Shown here in pieces: positions 5,909-19,038 of a stretch of DNA of 64,000 nucleotides. Below the pieces are notes generated by a model. That model saw only the letters and a program-made list of their open reading frames with translations, was not told the origin of the DNA and did no database searches. The position numbers and the translations under genes were made by a program. Positions within the stretch are counted from its first letter, which is position 1, and the number at the start of each line of letters is the position of its first letter. Source of the DNA: Gaiella sp. (GTDB lineage: Bacteria > Actinomycetota > Thermoleophilia > Gaiellales > Gaiellaceae); contig JAOSJZ010000001.1 of the NCBI GenBank assembly GCA_027493885.1, positions 1,178,001 through 1,242,000 of the forward strand, given 5' to 3'.

Positions 5909-8224
5909 CTATCGTACAGGCCTCGGACGCCGCGCATCGGCACGCCCGGCGTCACCGGCGAGCAGAGCGTCCAGGGCGGCAGGGCTCAGCGGAAGCCGCC
6001 TCACGCCCGCCCCGAACGAACCGAGCGCGTCCGCCACCGCGTTCGCCACCGCCGCGCCGACGCCGACGACGCCCGCCTCACCGGCTCCCTTCACGCCGAG
6101 CGCGTTCGTCGTCGCCCATCCGTCCAGAAGCTCGATGCGGAGCCTCGCCGGAACGTCCGCGCAGCCCGGGAGGAGATAGTCGAGGAACGAGAGCGACAGC
6201 AGCTGGCCGTCCTCGTCGTAGCAGAGCTCCTCGAGGAGCGTCACCCCGAGCCCGTGCACCGCGCCGCCGCGCACCTGGCCGAAGACCGACGGCGGGTCGA
6301 GCGGGCGGCCGCAATCGCACGCGAGCGCGAGCTCCTCCACCGTCACGATGGCGCAGGCAGGATCGACGGAGACCAGGGCGACGTCACCCCCGAACCCGAA
6401 CGTCGGCTGCGGATCCCGGTGCACTCCCGAGGCCGTCAGCCCGTCGAGCTCGCTCCAGGCGACGAAGCGGCCGTCGGCCTCGAGACCCGCGTCCACGAGC
6501 GCGACGTCCCCTGGAGCGACCCCGCAGCGCTCGGCGACAGCCTGCCGCGCCTCCGCTGCGAGCAGCTCGCAGCCCACGCGCACGGCGTTGCCGACGAAGA
6601 TCGTCAGCCGGCTCGAATACGTGCCCGCAGTCCGCACCGAGCCCCGTGCCTCACCCGAGACGACGTCCACCGACTCGCCCGGCACCCCGAGCGTCTCCGA
6701 CACCACCAGACGGACGGTGCGCTCGAGCCCCTGGCCGACCTCGCTCGCGGCCGTCTCGACGACGACGCGTCCGTTGCGAACGCCGACCCCGACCTGCTCC
6801 TCGCCACCGAGCCCCGAGTGGGCGACGAAGAGCCCGAGGCCGACCCCGACGAGCTCGCCGCGGGAGCGGCGCAGGTCGCGCCGAGCACGCAGCTCCTCGA
6901 GCCCGCTCCCGGCGACGAGCCTCTCGAAGAACGCGGGGAAGTCGCCGTCCGCGTACACGAGATTGTGGGCGTCGCCCCCGAAGCGCCTGGTGAACGGCAT
7001 CGCGCTCGCCGGGACGAGGCTCCTGCGACGCACCTCGGCGGGGTCGACCCCGACCCGGGCGGCGGCGATGTCGATCGCGCGCTCACGCGCGAACGTCGAC
7101 TCGAGCGCGACCGGCGCGCGCACCGACCCGACGGGTGTCTTGCTCGTCGCCCAGCCCGTCGCGACGATCGACGTCGCGTCCCAGCGGTAGGGGCCCACCA
7201 GCTCCTCGATCGCGAGCAGCGCCAGGCGGCCGCCGTTGCCGCGCGCGTAGGCACCCAGGTCGAGATCGACCGCGGCGGCGAGCGCGAGCAACCGGCCGTC
7301 GCGGGCGAGCCCGAGCCGGAGACGCCAGCGCAGCTCCGGCGCGTGGTTGATCGCCACGAAGTGCTCACGCCGGTCCTCGATCCAGCGCACGGGCCGCCCG
7401 GTCACGCGCGCGGCCCAGGGAATCAGGAAGTCCTCCGGGTAGACCTCGCCGCGAACGCCGAACATGCCGCCGACACTCACCCTGTGGCAGACCACGTCCT
7501 GCTCGTCGAGCCCGAACCACGAGGCTAGGACGTCGCGGTTGAACGAGACGAACTTCGCCGCCCCCCAGAGCTCGAGGCGCCCTCCTCCGGGAGACCACGC
7601 GGCCACGAGACCCCTCGTCTCGAGCGGGAGCCCCGTGTGGCGACCGGTGCGGAGCTCCTCCTCGACGACGACCGCGGCTCTCTCGAGGATGCGCTCCACC
7701 TCGCCCCGCGCCGTCTCGTAGCGGCAGAGGACGTTGCCCTCGGGGCGGTCGAATAGCCGCTGCTCCGCCCCCGGTCCCGGCACGAGCACGGGCGGCAGCG
7801 GGTCGATCTCGACGACGACGTGCTCGGCCGCGTCCTCCGCGGCGGCCGCATCCTCCGCGACCACCACGGCGACCGGCTCGCCGACGTACCGCACCCGACC
7901 GGCGGCGAGTACCGGCTGCACGGTCGCCGCCATGCCGGGGCGCTCGAAGCTGCGGATCGGAATCACCGTCGGGCGCGGGAGCTCCGCTGCCGTGAGCACG
8001 GCGCGCACCCCGGACATACGACGGGCTCTTGCCGCGTCGACGGCGAGGAGCCGTCCGTGTGCCTCGTGGCTCCGCACGACGACCGCCGCGAGCGCCCCGG
8101 GCACGTGGACGTCGCCGACGAAGAGCCCTTCCCCGGTCAGGAGCTCCGTTCCGTGCGGCGGCGCGCTCGGCACGCGCACGCCGACGTGCTCCCGCGGCAG
8201 CACGGCGGCGTCCGTCACGAGCAC
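5909..8224 (-). CDS. Molybdenum hydroxylase large subunit (xanthine dehydrogenase/aldehyde oxidase/CO dehydrogenase family)
   Basis: 771 aa; YVGEPVAVVVAE, RPVRWIEDRREHF, GGEEQVGVGVRNGRVVVETAASEVGQGL, VKGAGEAGVVG. Confidence 0.85.
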   Translation of the reverse strand: MLVTDAAVLPREHVGVRVPSAPPHGTELLTGEGLFVGDVHVPGALAAVVVRSHEAHGRLLAVDAARARRMSGVRAVLTAAELPRPTVIPIRSFERPGMAATVQPVLAAGRVRYVGEPVAVVVAEDAAAAEDAAEHVVVEIDPLPPVLVPGPGAEQRLFDRPEGNVLCRYETARGEVERILERAAVVVEEELRTGRHTGLPLETRGLVAAWSPGGGRLELWGAAKFVSFNRDVLASWFGLDEQDVVCHRVSVGGMFGVRGEVYPEDFLIPWAARVTGRPVRWIEDRREHFVAINHAPELRWRLRLGLARDGRLLALAAAVDLDLGAYARGNGGRLALLAIEELVGPYRWDATSIVATGWATSKTPVGSVRAPVALESTFARERAIDIAAARVGVDPAEVRRRSLVPASAMPFTRRFGGDAHNLVYADGDFPAFFERLVAGSGLEELRARRDLRRSRGELVGVGLGLFVAHSGLGGEEQVGVGVRNGRVVVETAASEVGQGLERTVRLVVSETLGVPGESVDVVSGEARGSVRTAGTYSSRLTIFVGNAVRVGCELLAAEARQAVAERCGVAPGDVALVDAGLEADGRFVAWSELDGLTASGVHRDPQPTFGFGGDVALVSVDPACAIVTVEELALACDCGRPLDPPSVFGQVRGGAVHGLGVTLLEELCYDEDGQLLSLSFLDYLLPGCADVPARLRIELLDGWATTNALGVKGAGEAGVVGVGAAVANAVADALGSFGAGVRRLPLSPAALDALLAGDAGRADARRPRPVR

Positions 8225-8296
8225 GCCCCACCGGGTACCTCACCGAGCCGGTGTCTCACCGCCGCGATCGTACGTCGCCGGCGCGGCGAGCTGCGC

Positions 8297-9262
8297 CTAC
8301 GGGGCCGTCGCCGCCTCGAGCCGGCCGTCGACCGCGTCGCGATCGACGTCGGGGCCGAGCCCGATGAAGACGAGCTCGGTACGCGGGGTGTCGCCGTTCC
8401 ACGGCCCCAGCGGACGGATCTCGACGCGGCGCCCGACGACGTGCGCGACGACCCGCTGCCCCGGTGCCTCGACGAGCCGCACGAACCCCTTCGCACGGAA
8501 CACGTCCGCCGGAAGCGATCCGAGCACGGCCCGGAGCGGGCCGTAGCGAAGCGGCTCGTCGCTCGTCCAGGCCCAGGTCGCGATGCCGTGCGCGTGCCCG
8601 TGCTCATCCCCCGCGCGCGCCCCCGGCGCCGCGGCCCCTCCCACGCCGAGCACGAGCTCGAGCGGCACGCGCCCGAACGACGCCTCGACGATTCGCGCGG
8701 CCGGATACGTCAGCCGGCCCCGTACCGTCGCGAGCTCGGCGGTGGAGACGAGGTCCGCCTTGTTGAGCACGATCACGTCCGCGGCCGCGAGCTGGCGTCG
8801 CGCGAGCTCGAGGCCCTGCGGCGGGATCTCGTCCACCGCGGCCGCGTCGACGAGCGTGACGACGCCGTCGACGCGCGCCAGGCGCCGCACGTGCTCGTCG
8901 CGGAGCGCGACGAGCAGCCGGCCAGGGTCGGAGACGCCGCTCGCCTCGACGAGGACGCGCTCGGGCGGGTAGGACGCCTCGAGCACGCCGACGAGTTGCG
9001 AGACGAGATCGGCGCCGATCGTGCAGCAGACGCAGCCGTTGTCGAGCGTGATCGTGGTGGCGTCCCTGCTCGCGATCAGGCGACCGTCGACGTCGATCGA
9101 GCCGAAGTCGTTGACGAAGACGGTCACCCGCTGCCCGTGGTCGGCGGCGAGGACGTGGTTCAGGAGCGTCGTCTTCCCCGAGCCGAGGAAGCCGGCCAGC
9201 ACCGTCACGGGGACGGGTGCCGCCGGCTCCGAGGCCGCTACGGCGACGGTCTCCGGTTCCAC
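8297..9262 (-). CDS. CobW/COG0523-family GTPase (metallochaperone-like)
   Basis: GFLGSGKTTLLNHVL, DNGCVCCTIGADL, NKADLV; His-rich DEHGHAHG; GTG start 9260-9262. Confidence 0.9.
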   Translation of the reverse strand: MEPETVAVAASEPAAPVPVTVLAGFLGSGKTTLLNHVLAADHGQRVTVFVNDFGSIDVDGRLIASRDATTITLDNGCVCCTIGADLVSQLVGVLEASYPPERVLVEASGVSDPGRLLVALRDEHVRRLARVDGVVTLVDAAAVDEIPPQGLELARRQLAAADVIVLNKADLVSTAELATVRGRLTYPAARIVEASFGRVPLELVLGVGGAAAPGARAGDEHGHAHGIATWAWTSDEPLRYGPLRAVLGSLPADVFRAKGFVRLVEAPGQRVVAHVVGRRVEIRPLGPWNGDTPRTELVFIGLGPDVDRDAVDGRLEAATAP

Positions 9263-9912
9263 ACGACGACCTGGTACGAGCGCCAGAGGTACGTGACCGG
9301 AACGGTCACCACGTGAACGAGCCGCGTGAACGGGAAGAGCGCGATCAGGGCGAAACCGAGCACGGAGTGGATCTTCACGACCGCGGGCAGCACGGTCATC
9401 GTCCCCGGGTCGGGCTGGAGCTTCACGAGCGAGTGGAGCCACGGCACCGCGGTGTGCATGTACCACTCCGAGCCCCAGCGGTACGCGAGCGCGATCCAGA
9501 TCCCGAGCACGACCTGCACCGCGAGCACGGCGAGAAGCAGCCAGTCCGCCGGCGTGGTCACCGCCATGATGCGCGGGAACGCGAAGCGACGGACGACGAG
9601 CACGACGAGGCCGCCGAGCGCGAGCACCGAGAGCGAGAGCCCGATCACCTCGAGCGTGTAGAGGCGGTTGGGGTCGGTCACGAGCGCCGACCACGGGTCC
9701 CAGAGCACGAGCGCGAGAACGTGCGCAGCGAGGATCGCGAGGATCCCGTAGTGCCAGAACACGGAGCCCCAGAAGAGCGTCTTCGACTCGAGGAACTGGG
9801 ACGACTGGCTCGAGTACGAGAAGCGGTCGGAGCGGTAGCGCGCGATGCCGCCGAAGACCGCGACCGCGACGGTCAGGTACGGGATGACGACGAAGAGCAG
9901 CGTGTTCCACAT
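9238..9912 (-). CDS. narI: Respiratory nitrate reductase gamma subunit
   Basis: MWNTLLFVVIPYLTVAVAVFGGIARYRSDRFSYSSQSSQFLE; multi-TM NarI; last in narGHJI order. Confidence 0.93.
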   Translation of the reverse strand: MWNTLLFVVIPYLTVAVAVFGGIARYRSDRFSYSSQSSQFLESKTLFWGSVFWHYGILAILAAHVLALVLWDPWSALVTDPNRLYTLEVIGLSLSVLALGGLVVLVVRRFAFPRIMAVTTPADWLLLAVLAVQVVLGIWIALAYRWGSEWYMHTAVPWLHSLVKLQPDPGTMTVLPAVVKIHSVLGFALIALFPFTRLVHVVTVPVTYLWRSYQVVVWNRRPSP

Positions 9913-9925
9913 GGCGTGCCTCCTT

Positions 9926-10596
9926 CTATCCGCAGGTCGCCCTGTCGATGCCGAGGCTGTCCCGGTCGCGCATCCACTCACGCTCGCTCTCGAGCTCGAG
10001 TGGATCGACGACGGCATGCGGCCTCGCCGCCCGCAGCGCCAGCTCGAGCGCGCCCAGGACCGTGCGATACGCGGTCTGGGGCTCGAGGGGACCCTCCGCG
10101 CGCGGCCCGCCCGGCAGCGCGGAGATCCGCGCGAGCGCCGGGAGGATCGCGTCGTCGAGGAGCTCGCCGGCGAGCTCCTCGTCGTCGCAGACGGCGAGGA
10201 ACGAGAGGAGGACGACGAGGTGGTCGGCGAGCTCGCCGCCGTCGGGCTCGAAGCCCGCGGCGCGGAAGCGGCGCCGCAGCTCGACGATGAACGCGCCGCG
10301 CTTGTGGCTCTCCTCGAACAGGTAGTGGCCGACGTACGGGTAGCACGTGGGCTGCGAGCGGGCGAGCGTGTCGAGGTCGAAGGTGCGCGTGTAGGCCTCC
10401 TGGAGCTCGCCGAGCCCGGTCGTCGCGACGAGCGCGCCGAAGGCGTCGAGCAGCGCCTCCGCCTCGGAGCTCCACTCGCCGGCGGCCTTCGCGGCCGTCC
10501 GCACGTCCCCGCCGGGAGGCACGACTGGGTACGTGAGGACGGCCGCGAACGCCCCGGCGAGCCCGGCGACCTCGGTCGGCCTCGCCACGAGCTCGC

Positions 10597-10600
<4 letters not shown>
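9926..10600 (-). CDS. narJ: Nitrate reductase assembly chaperone
   Basis: YPYVGHYLFEESHKRGAFIVELRRRF; GTG start overlaps narH stop. Confidence 0.9.
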
Positions 10601-12123
<1,523 letters not shown>

Positions 12124-12146
12124 ACTGCTCCTCTCCGCCGCGCCGC

Positions 12147-15797
<3,651 letters not shown>

Positions 15798-15801
15798 GGT
15801 T

Positions 15802-16645
15802 TCATCCCTCCCTGGCACTCGAGACGAGCGGCCTGCGTACGCCCGTGAGGCGCCGCCGCCAGAAGACGAGCGCCGCGAGCACGATCAGCACGGCGAGGCC
15901 GACGGAGAGCCCGATCAGCTTTCCCGCGGCGCCCGCGGTTCGCTCCTGCGTCGGCGCGGCGGCGAGGAACGCGACGAGGTCGGCGCGCTCTCCTACGGTC
16001 AGCGGCTTGCCGGCGAAGATCGGCGCCATCGTCGGGAAGGTCATCGCCTCGAGAGAGGAGCCGAGCCCCTGCGCGCCGCCGTACTTCTCGTACGAGCCGG
16101 TGAGGTCGGGCCCGAGCGCGCCGCCGCCGAGGGCGCCGACGCCGGCCACCGAATGGCAGGAGAGACATGCGGGCCCCCGGCCGAGAGCCGCTCCGCGCCC
16201 GTGAACAGATGCTTGCCGCGCTCGGCGTCTCCCCGGGGGCGGGAGCCGGAGCGGGCGTCGGCGCTGGAGAGGGGGTCGGCTTCGGCGCGGGGGCCGCCTG
16301 GTAGCCCAGGAAGGCGAGGAGCGGGCCGATCTGGGCATCTGTGACGCCGACGTCGGGCATCGGCGTGCCGTACTCGTCGACGAGCTTCTTCGCGATCGGG
16401 TCGCCCGAGGCGATCACGTCCTGCGGCGCGAGGATGAACCTCTCCGCCCAGTCGCGGTCGACGCGGTCAGGGAGGCCGGCGAGATCGGGGCCGACGAGCT
16501 TGCCTCCGCCGATCGAGTGGCAGCCTGCGCAGAGGCTGTCGAACACCGCCTTCCCCTCGTCGGCGGCCGCGGTGGCGGATCCTGCCGGGATCGAGGCGCC
16601 GAGCAGCACGAGCCACGCGACGAGGAGAAGGCGAGCTCTTCCCAC
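15802..16645 (-). CDS. Diheme c-type cytochrome with C-terminal TM anchor (two frameshifts)
   Basis: First heme CAGCH in frame of ORF 15794-16645, second CLSCH in frame of ORF 15802-16338; one missing base near 16231-16239 and one at C5 16174-16178 give continuous ..[33 protein letters not shown].. Confidence 0.8.
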
Positions 16646-16680
16646 CAGCGCGACGCTATCCAGGCCCCGGCACGGGAACG

Positions 16681-16696
16681 TGATTAGATTTGATCA
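16681..16696. promoter_or_regulatory. TGATY-N6-GATCA box 1, upstream of cytochrome c-narGHJI
   Basis: TGATTAGATTTGATCA, 36 bp upstream of the 16645 start. Confidence 0.6.
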
Positions 16697-17932
16697 GGCT
16701 CGGGCCTGCCGGCCCGCGATGCCGCCGACGAGCTCGGCCGGCGCCGTCCGCACGAGCCAGACGGCGAGCACGAGGCACATCACCACGAAGACGAGCAGGC
16801 CGACGAACCCGTACGTGTAGGTGCCCTCCACGTCCTTGACGAGGCCGACGAAGATCGGCGGGAAGAACCCGCCGAGCCCGCCCGCGGCGCCGACGATGCC
16901 GCCGGCCGACCCCGCGTCGGCCGGGAACTCCGTCGGCACGAGCTTGAAGACGGCACCGTTGCCGATACCGAGGAAGGTGCCGAGCGTGAGGCACGCGATC
17001 GTGACCGGGACGATCCGCGGGCTGGTCGCGATCGACGCCAGCACGGACGCGTCGACCGCGATCCCGGCGAACATCAGGATCAGCACCGGATAGGCCCCGA
17101 AGTGGTCGGAGAGCCAGCCGCCGACGGGGCGCGCGACCGTCGCCGCGATGATGAACCCGGCCGCGCGCGCCGAGGCGTCTCCCTTCGAGAAGTCGAACCA
17201 GTCCTGCAGCAGGGTCGGAAGCAGGAACGCCATCGCGACGAAGCCGCCGAAGGTGATGAAGTAGAAGAACGCGAGCCGGTAGAGGCGCCACCCGGAGCGG
17301 AGCACCTCGCTGTAGCGCGTCGGGGGCGCCGTCCGCGGCGCGTCCCGCGCGAGCGTGGCGAACCCGGCCGCGCCGGCGAGCAGCGCGGCGGCCGTCACCC
17401 AGCCGAGCGTGGGCCTCCCCCACGCCGACGCGATCGCCGGCCCGCCGAAGAACACGATCGCGGTGCCCGCGTTCCCGACGCCGAAGACCCCGAGCGCGAG
17501 ACCCTGCCGCTCCCGCGGGAACCATCCGGACGAGAACGAGACGCCCACCGCGAACGAGGCGCCCGAGACGCCGAGCAGGAGGCCGACCGCCAGGAGCGTC
17601 CAGTACGAGTCAGCGTAGCCGAAGAGGACGCTCGGCACCGCCGCGAACGCGAGCAGCACCGTGAACACGAGGCGGCCCCCGTAGCGGTCGGCGAGCACGC
17701 CGACGGGGATCCGCGCGAGCGATCCGAGCACGACGGGTATCGCCGTGAGGAACAGCGCCTCCGTGTAGCTCAGGTCGAGGTCGTTCTTGAACGTCTTCGC
17801 GAACGGCGCGATCAGGCTCCACGAGGCGAAGCAGAGCGCGAAGGCGGCGGTCGCGAGCGCGAGGTTCCAGCCGGGGAGCGCGGGGAAGCGCGTGCCCCCC
17901 TCGGGGCGGGTCGACGCGCGCGCCTCGCTCAT
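16694..17932 (-). CDS. narK: Nitrate/nitrite MFS transporter
   Basis: WNLALATAAFALCFASWSLIAPFAKTFKNDL, RIPVGVLADRYGGR, GNGAVFKLVPTEFP; start MSEAR (alternative 17941). Confidence 0.92.
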   Translation of the reverse strand: MSEARASTRPEGGTRFPALPGWNLALATAAFALCFASWSLIAPFAKTFKNDLDLSYTEALFLTAIPVVLGSLARIPVGVLADRYGGRLVFTVLLAFAAVPSVLFGYADSYWTLLAVGLLLGVSGASFAVGVSFSSGWFPRERQGLALGVFGVGNAGTAIVFFGGPAIASAWGRPTLGWVTAAALLAGAAGFATLARDAPRTAPPTRYSEVLRSGWRLYRLAFFYFITFGGFVAMAFLLPTLLQDWFDFSKGDASARAAGFIIAATVARPVGGWLSDHFGAYPVLILMFAGIAVDASVLASIATSPRIVPVTIACLTLGTFLGIGNGAVFKLVPTEFPADAGSAGGIVGAAGGLGGFFPPIFVGLVKDVEGTYTYGFVGLLVFVVMCLVLAVWLVRTAPAELVGGIAGRQARA

Positions 17933-17967
17933 GCGGCACATGGTTCCGTGCGCCCGCACGAGCGTGG

Positions 17968-17983
17968 TGATCGAATGTGATCA
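17968..17983. promoter_or_regulatory. TGATY-N6-GATCA box 2, narK/CBS divergent promoter
   Basis: TGATCGAATGTGATCA, roughly central between starts 17932 and 18021. Confidence 0.65.
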
Positions 17984-18020
17984 CGCGCCGCGGCGTCGTC
18001 GGCGCAAGCCTCCCAGAACG

Positions 18021-18440
18021 ATGGCCACGATGGTCCACCTCACCCGCACCGAGGTCGCGGAGCTCCCGGTCTCCGAGATCACGATCACGGGGAAGACCGT
18101 GCAGGCGGGCGTGACCGTCGACGACGCGCGGCGCGCGTTCGCCTCGAGCGCGGTCCAGGTGGTGCCCGTCCTCGAGGGCGCCCGCTACCTCGGCGCGGTC
18201 GACCGCGGCACGATCGAGGCCGCCGACGGAGGCGCCGCGCTCTCCTCGGTCGCGCAGGCGCTCGTTCCCCAGGTGCTGGAGGGGGAGCGCGCGGGGGACG
18301 CGCTCGCGGCCCTCGACGCGCACGGCGCCACGCGGCTCGTGGTCGTCGGCGAGGACGGCCGCTACGTCGGCATCGTCTGCCTGCGCGGTGACCGCGAGCG
18401 ACTGTGCATCGACGCAGCGCGGCTCCGCGTCCTCGCCTGA
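18021..18440 (+). CDS. CBS-domain pair protein
   Basis: VVPVLEGARYLGAVDRGTIEAA ... GATRLVVVGEDGRYVGIVCL. Confidence 0.8.
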   Translation: MATMVHLTRTEVAELPVSEITITGKTVQAGVTVDDARRAFASSAVQVVPVLEGARYLGAVDRGTIEAADGGAALSSVAQALVPQVLEGERAGDALAALDAHGATRLVVVGEDGRYVGIVCLRGDRERLCIDAARLRVLA

Positions 18441-18456
18441 GACGCGGGTACCGGCG

Positions 18457-19023
18457 TCAGAGGAGCTGCCGGCGGCGTCCCTCGGCGATCGCCGCGAGCT
18501 GCGAATGGCAGCGGAGCCCGACGAGGATGCCGCGGATGTGGTTGCGCACGGTGACCTCGGCGAGGCCGAGCTCCTGGGCGATCACCTTCGCCGGCTTCCC
18601 CTCCCCGAGCAGGCGCAGCACCTCGAGCTGGCGCGCCGTCAGGGGTGTTCCCTCCGTCCCGGGGTCCTGCGCGACCTCCTCGCCGTTCCGGAGCAGGTGG
18701 ATCACGATGGGCCCGTCGGGGTCGCAGTCGAGCAGCGAGATCGTCGACATGCCGATCCGCTTCCGTCCGGACGCGGTGCGGATGAGGACGTGCCGGCACG
18801 GCACCGGCCAGCCCTCGCGGGCGAGCCGCGCGCCCGAGCAGCCGGCATGGCAAACGAGGTCGCCGCGGTCCGTGACCGCCCCGAGCAACGCCCAGCAGGG
18901 CCGGCCGACCGCATCCTCGGCCTTCGTCCCCGTGAGGCGCTCGAGCGCCTCGTTCCACGTGCGGACAAGCATGTCCGGCCCGAAGGAGAAGACCGCGTCG
19001 CCCGATCGCGGAGTGGCGAGCAT
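18457..19023 (-). CDS. PAS-domain LuxR-type transcriptional regulator with four clustered Cys
   Basis: PAS-like MLVRTWNEALERLTGTKAEDAVGRPCW; C-x14-C-x3-C-x13-C; HTH LTARQLEVLRLLGEGKPAKVIAQELGLAEVTVRNHIRGIL. Confidence 0.88.
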   Translation of the reverse strand: MLATPRSGDAVFSFGPDMLVRTWNEALERLTGTKAEDAVGRPCWALLGAVTDRGDLVCHAGCSGARLAREGWPVPCRHVLIRTASGRKRIGMSTISLLDCDPDGPIVIHLLRNGEEVAQDPGTEGTPLTARQLEVLRLLGEGKPAKVIAQELGLAEVTVRNHIRGILVGLRCHSQLAAIAEGRRRQLL

Positions 19024-19038
19024 GATCCACTTTGATCA
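19023..19038. promoter_or_regulatory. TGATY-N6-GATCA box 3, at start codon of PAS-LuxR gene
   Basis: TGATCCACTTTGATCA. Confidence 0.6.

Follow-up and report, generated by a model that had tools for sequence, protein, structure and literature searches.

A 16-bp palindrome recurring in the promoters of an actinobacterial nitrate respiration cluster is a predicted operator of the neighboring PAS-LuxR regulator

Which protein reads the three copies of a 16-bp palindrome found in one nitrate respiration cluster, and what would it do there? The cluster lies in the window (the whole stretch of 64,000 nucleotides that was analyzed), and its order along the forward strand is cobW, narI, narJ, narH, narG, narC, box 1, narK, box 2, the CBS gene, and a PAS-LuxR regulator gene with box 3. 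The initial annotation had reported a 16-mer at each of the three box positions, and all three were located there (Table 1). The two cytochrome c domains of narC occupy separate frames in the window (a 283-amino-acid frame, 15794-16645, and 15802-16338), while in the homologs from L098 and L043 both domain matches share one frame; the split is either a true frameshift or an assembly error.

Table 1. Coordinates of the genes, boxes and predicted promoter elements of the nitrate cluster in the window
Feature	Position	Strand	Remarks
cobW-family GTPase gene	8297..9193	-	Downstream of narI; also kept in L076 and L078
narH, narJ, narI	9238..12140	-	narH and narJ assigned from their position and from L042 homology; inner boundaries approximate
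narI	9238..10017	-	PF02665
narG	12147..15818	-	PF00384, PF01568; 79-84% identity to this copy in L043, L078 and L076
narC, cytochrome c	15794..16645	-	Gene 1 of the nar operon; start GTG 16645
Predicted -10 of nar, TAGCGT	16653..16658	-	22 nt from box 1; 7 nt before GTG 16645
Box 1, TGATCAAATCTAATCA read toward the nar operon	16681..16696	-	Matrix score 26.0; predicted operator of narC-narGHJI
narK, nitrate/nitrite MFS transporter	16694..17932	-	PF07690; TIGR00886 below curated cutoff
Degenerate -10 of narK, AACCAT	17940..17945	-	22 nt from box 2; 7 nt before ATG 17932; 2/3 consensus bases
Box 2	17968..17983	.	Matrix score 22.4; predicted common operator of narK and the CBS gene
Degenerate -10 of the CBS gene, AAGCCT	18006..18011	+	22 nt from box 2; 2/3 consensus bases
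CBS-domain protein gene	18021..18440	+	Ortholog adjoins the regulator in L078 and L098
PAS-LuxR one-component regulator gene	18457..19023	-	188 aa; PAS and LuxR HTH; proposed box reader
Box 3, TGATCAAAGTGGATCA	19023..19038	-	Matrix score 21.1; final A is base 1 of the regulator ATG

When TGAT-N6-TGATCA was searched with up to one mismatch, the 64-kb window yielded six matches on both strands, all of them the three boxes; 0.48 were expected from shuffles, and none of 100 dinucleotide shuffles reached six. TGATY-N6-RATCA occurred at 11 places in the 3.29-Mb genome, 3 of them within the nar cluster stretch, and TGATCA-N4-TGATCA with up to one mismatch at 7, of which 3 fell inside one 2.4-kb stretch of the window. 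A symmetric matrix trained on eight sites, all from other genomes (L042, L043, L071, L077 and L098), ranked the boxes as the top three sites of the window, the next best scoring 11.6. Under an independent-base model, 0.14 places with scores of 21 or more would be expected in the whole genome. The recurrence is real and beyond chance, and the three copies would constitute a DNA switch.

The consensus of the initial annotation is valid as a one-strand reading; written symmetrically, it becomes TGATCA-N4-TGATCA, whose center is A+T-rich (TGATCAAWTYTGATCA). Its further claim that the first two boxes are equally spaced from their start codons, at 36 bp, was borne out, a 35-nt gap separating each box from the narC GTG or the narK ATG. 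As for box 3, the regulator cannot start further upstream, because the first three bases of the box form an in-frame TGA.

The regulator combines, in one chain, a PAS-type fold followed by a GerE HTH, an architecture seen alike in the domain matches, the structure model and the fold search, which places it among PAS-LuxR one-component proteins. In Pfam, GerE was matched at 5.8e-12 (the LuxR HTH spanning residues 127 to 179) and PAS_9 at 1.7e-5, slightly under the curated cutoff, and no Response_reg match, as a receiver domain before the HTH would give, was obtained for the protein. All of 13 orthologs had Cys43, Cys58 and Cys62, and conservation of these residues was at least 90% among 22. The structure model (mean pLDDT, 92.4) was closest in fold to EL222 and VqmA, with low sequence identity (18 to 24%), and its PAS part also resembled the heme PAS domains of FixL. 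Fe-S, heme and thiol redox chemistry are candidates for the signal. The PAS-LuxR proteins of L042, L043, L076 and L078 were 39 to 52% identical to the window copy, versus 79 to 84% for NarG, so that the regulator evolves far more quickly than NarG. An HTH-only LuxR protein is encoded divergently from the PAS-LuxR gene in L098 (9605-9895) and L093 (5483-5959), its HTH being 46 to 62% identical to that of the window regulator.

To follow the box across genomes, orthologs of the PAS-LuxR protein were searched in whole genomes and GTDB contigs. Conservation upstream of orthologous nar operons, a check proposed by the initial annotation, was found where the regulator was present (the window, L043 and L098). 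Thus, the cytochrome c-narGHJI promoter carried a box in all three genera in which both promoter and regulator could be read; all nar promoters that combine a strong box with the regulator belong to a single family, where they represent these three genera. The nar cluster of genome G034 (L042/L043) has two regulator copies, with two boxes in the divergent gap between regulator copy 2 and narC and a third upstream of copy 1. In G121 (L098), boxes precede narC (483), a gene with a DGC domain (9100) and the regulator (9933). Regulator genes were boxed also where the fetched stretch contained no nar genes, as upstream of the regulator in L071 and L077. In L083 the box again lies on the regulator start. 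Over 19 nontraining loci, the window excluded, enrichment of the box upstream of the regulator gave a combined p of ~1e-10, a value obtained from shuffles that keep base composition alone and do not correct for relatedness among loci.

Two held-out loci from another family of the phylum extended this pattern. In L226, boxes scoring 28.9 and 22.9 stand next to the regulator; in L225, AGGTCAAATTTGACCA (16.5) separates the regulator from a narK-narGHJI operon whose NarG belongs to a lineage other than that of the window. One held-out box precedes a universal-stress-protein-like gene. No box was found upstream of the 49 to 52% identical regulator in six genomes of one genus (g11), nor upstream of that in several distant relatives. 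A deltaproteobacterial PAS-LuxR gene is closely followed by two box-like palindromes 22 bp apart (L108, 9585 and 9607).

Nar loci lacking an adjacent regulator (L192 and L194 to L204, including L198, the second nar cluster of the same genome) served as the control. The nar promoter of L204 falls off its contig, leaving 11 readable promoters; in these loci no box scored above 16, and no weaker match above 10 lay at the promoter. G066, the source of control locus L202, encodes a regulator homolog elsewhere in its genome. The narG of L198 is split over frames (matches at 8000-9604 and 9603-11534). The suggestion of the initial annotation that the PAS-LuxR protein is probably in control is thus supported, the box being conserved with the regulator and absent from the readable nar promoters that lack an adjacent copy.

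The position of the boxes relative to putative -10 elements was similarly constant. Among 18 boxes, TANNNT occurred 22 nt away in 5 cases and 23 nt away in 2, with no more than 2 cases at any other offset; its background in the window was ~0.0005 per position. The arrangement box-N22-TAGCGT was present at narC in the window, L043 and L098, which represent three genera, and box-N22-TANNNT at regulator copy 2 of L043 (TAATGT) and the DGC gene of L098 (TAGTCT). At the ctaA box a weaker hexamer, TTGAAT, occupies N22 (2/3 consensus bases). A search of ten genomes with the combined box-N22-TANNNT pattern returned eight matches, including narC twice, regulator copy 2 and, in G034, a corrinoid-protein-like gene with a 5' leader. 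The remaining four are probably due to chance, since controls gave 0 to 2 matches per strand and genome. No -10 element was found at N22 of box 3 in either direction, and TANNNT was absent from N22 of, among others, the DGC-DtxR, FAD enzyme and PALP enzyme boxes of the same genome.

In leaderless actinobacterial genes, TANNNT lies ~12 bp before the start codon (PMC3160421). TAGCGT of narC is at -13, and the weaker hexamers of narK and ctaA are in the same place. As TAGCGT follows the box after 22 nt and precedes the start codon by 7 nt, leaderless transcripts are predicted, and the box would be centered at about -42.5. An operator centered near -41.5 or -42.5, at a fixed distance from the -10 element, characterizes class II activator promoters, and box-N22-TANNNT was found at nar in three genera and at two other promoters. 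The equal 36-bp spacing is accordingly explained by the box-N22-TANNNT geometry combined with leaderless placement of the -10 element.

Further sites were sought in the same genome by a pattern search followed by matrix scoring, which covered places within two mismatches of the consensus and gave a list that may be incomplete. Boxes scoring at least 19 preceded ctaA (24.0), a hemerythrin gene (20.2), a DGC-DtxR-FeoA gene (19.7), the genes of a FAD enzyme (26.5) and a PALP enzyme (22.6), and an NfeD/unknown gene pair (19.3); another (19.2) lay in or before a peptidase frame, and a small frame situated upstream of a COX1 gene was preceded by a weaker site (16.2). In L098, too, a DGC-domain gene is boxed. 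The initial annotation had named a genome-wide matrix scan as a check on its proposal, and the strong matches fell at gene starts or ends, with the exception of the one in or before a possible frame. The predicted regulon is not, however, as purely local as it envisaged, scattered sites also preceding ctaA, the hemerythrin gene, the DGC-domain regulator and others. Taking all 11 TGATYN6RATCA places as the regulon was rejected, and L001, L002, L007 and L008 were dropped (G+C-rich centers, scores of 15 or less). Upstream of a FAD/BBE enzyme, overlapping boxes form TGACCATCGATGATCAGATCTGATCA with three half-sites 10 bp apart (G000:C1:1124537-1124562; L208, 6537-6562). In L098, a box at 11831 (19.5) precedes a multicopper oxidase/cupredoxin gene, possibly NirK-like.

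We consider, with a probability of roughly 0.8, that the boxes are operators of the neighboring PAS-LuxR protein, which would activate nar in class II fashion and limit its own synthesis. A dimer would bind the 16-bp palindrome with one HTH per half. The box would stand in for the -35 element at narC-narGHJI, narK/CBS and ctaA, ending 22 nt before a TANNNT-type -10 element, so that the bound regulator could recruit RNA polymerase to the predicted leaderless start. Autorepression is proposed because box 3 covers the regulator start codon, where the bound protein would probably restrict its own production. The three-cysteine PAS domain is probably a direct sensor of low oxygen, redox state or a nitrogen oxide, with no kinase involved.

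It is unlikely that the PAS-LuxR protein acts from the boxes as a repressor of nar, one that would block the -35 region until released by a signal. Box 3 does occupy a repressor-like position over the start codon of the regulator, and operators over -35 elements can repress; however, the fixed N22 to the -10 element at independent promoters is what a class II activator needs, whereas the position of a repressor site would be less constrained.

A different reader is less probable still. The 5-6-5 layout of TGATC-N6-GATCA equals the CRP layout TGTGA-N6-TCACA, CRP/FNR-family proteins are common class II activators of nitrate respiration, and one CRP-family protein is encoded elsewhere in the genome. 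Yet it is the one clear member of the family, no box occurs in the 3.5 kb around its gene, and in different genera the box accompanies PAS-LuxR, none having been found at the examined nar promoters that lack PAS-LuxR beside them. The FNR spacing is also missing: an FNR/DNR site needs TTGAT-N4-ATCAA, but all three boxes read TGAT-N8-ATCA, with GAT and ATC 8 bp apart, as the initial annotation had noted in setting them apart from the canonical form. We therefore regard a CRP/FNR-type reader as improbable. The least probable candidate is a NarL/DosR-type two-component response regulator or an HTH-only LuxR protein. Near the ctaA box lies a gene for a response regulator that carries a LuxR HTH (L207, 6323-6958), and L098 and L093 encode the HTH-only proteins divergent from PAS-LuxR; however, neither type was recognized around the nar cluster of the window, and from genome to genome it is PAS-LuxR that constantly neighbors the box. 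The OsdR/DevR box, a 16-mer resembling AGGGCCGATCGGCCCT (PMC5069765), was rejected as a match, since the boxes have no G-run half.

Under the PAS-LuxR reading, nitrate respiration of deep-branching and poorly cultured Actinobacteria would be controlled by a single protein whose operator, regulon and promoter geometry are specified, and the matrix and spacing rule can be used for regulon finding in metagenomes. More tentatively, and with somewhat less than even odds, the protein may represent a widespread new PAS-LuxR class in which three cysteines, perhaps holding Fe-S, would directly sense oxygen or nitrogen oxides and which would drive leaderless class II promoters of nitrate respiration and linked respiratory genes through the box; relatives in other phyla (e.g., Acidobacteria, L104) would recognize that box as well. 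Titles and abstracts in a limited open-access literature gave no match for a described PAS-LuxR nar regulator or for a nar regulator in Thermoleophilia.

Control of nitrate respiration is known chiefly from FNR, NarXL, NreABC and DosR-type systems. FNR and DNR use a palindromic box near -41.5 of class II nar and narK promoters; the predicted placement here is nearly the same, but the spacing and the regulator fold differ. In Thermus, the regulators DnrS and DnrT are described as encoded beside a mobile nar operon (PMC6282519), and the likeness, drawn from description rather than sequence, is one of gene neighborhood, a regulator adjoining nar. NreB of staphylococci, going by a title cited in PMC8139620, binds an oxygen-labile 4Fe-4S cluster; it appears similar in linking a cysteine-bearing PAS domain to nitrate respiration, but it is a histidine kinase that works through a response regulator of its own, whereas here one protein carries three conserved cysteines. 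OsdR of Streptomyces and DevR (DosR) of mycobacteria are LuxR-HTH proteins that recognize a 16-bp palindrome, govern hypoxia regulons and control nar (PMC5069765, PMC8139620). They share with the present system an actinobacterial LuxR-HTH regulator, a 16-bp palindrome and, given the held-out box, a link to a universal-stress-protein-like gene, but they are response regulators phosphorylated by kinases and their box is of the AGGGCCGATCGGCCCT type. EL222 (LOV-LuxR) and VqmA (PAS-LuxR), like the regulator, join an N-terminal PAS-type sensor to a C-terminal LuxR/GerE HTH; EL222 senses light and VqmA the autoinducer DPO, whereas the protein described here has a three-cysteine PAS domain and predicted targets in nitrate respiration.
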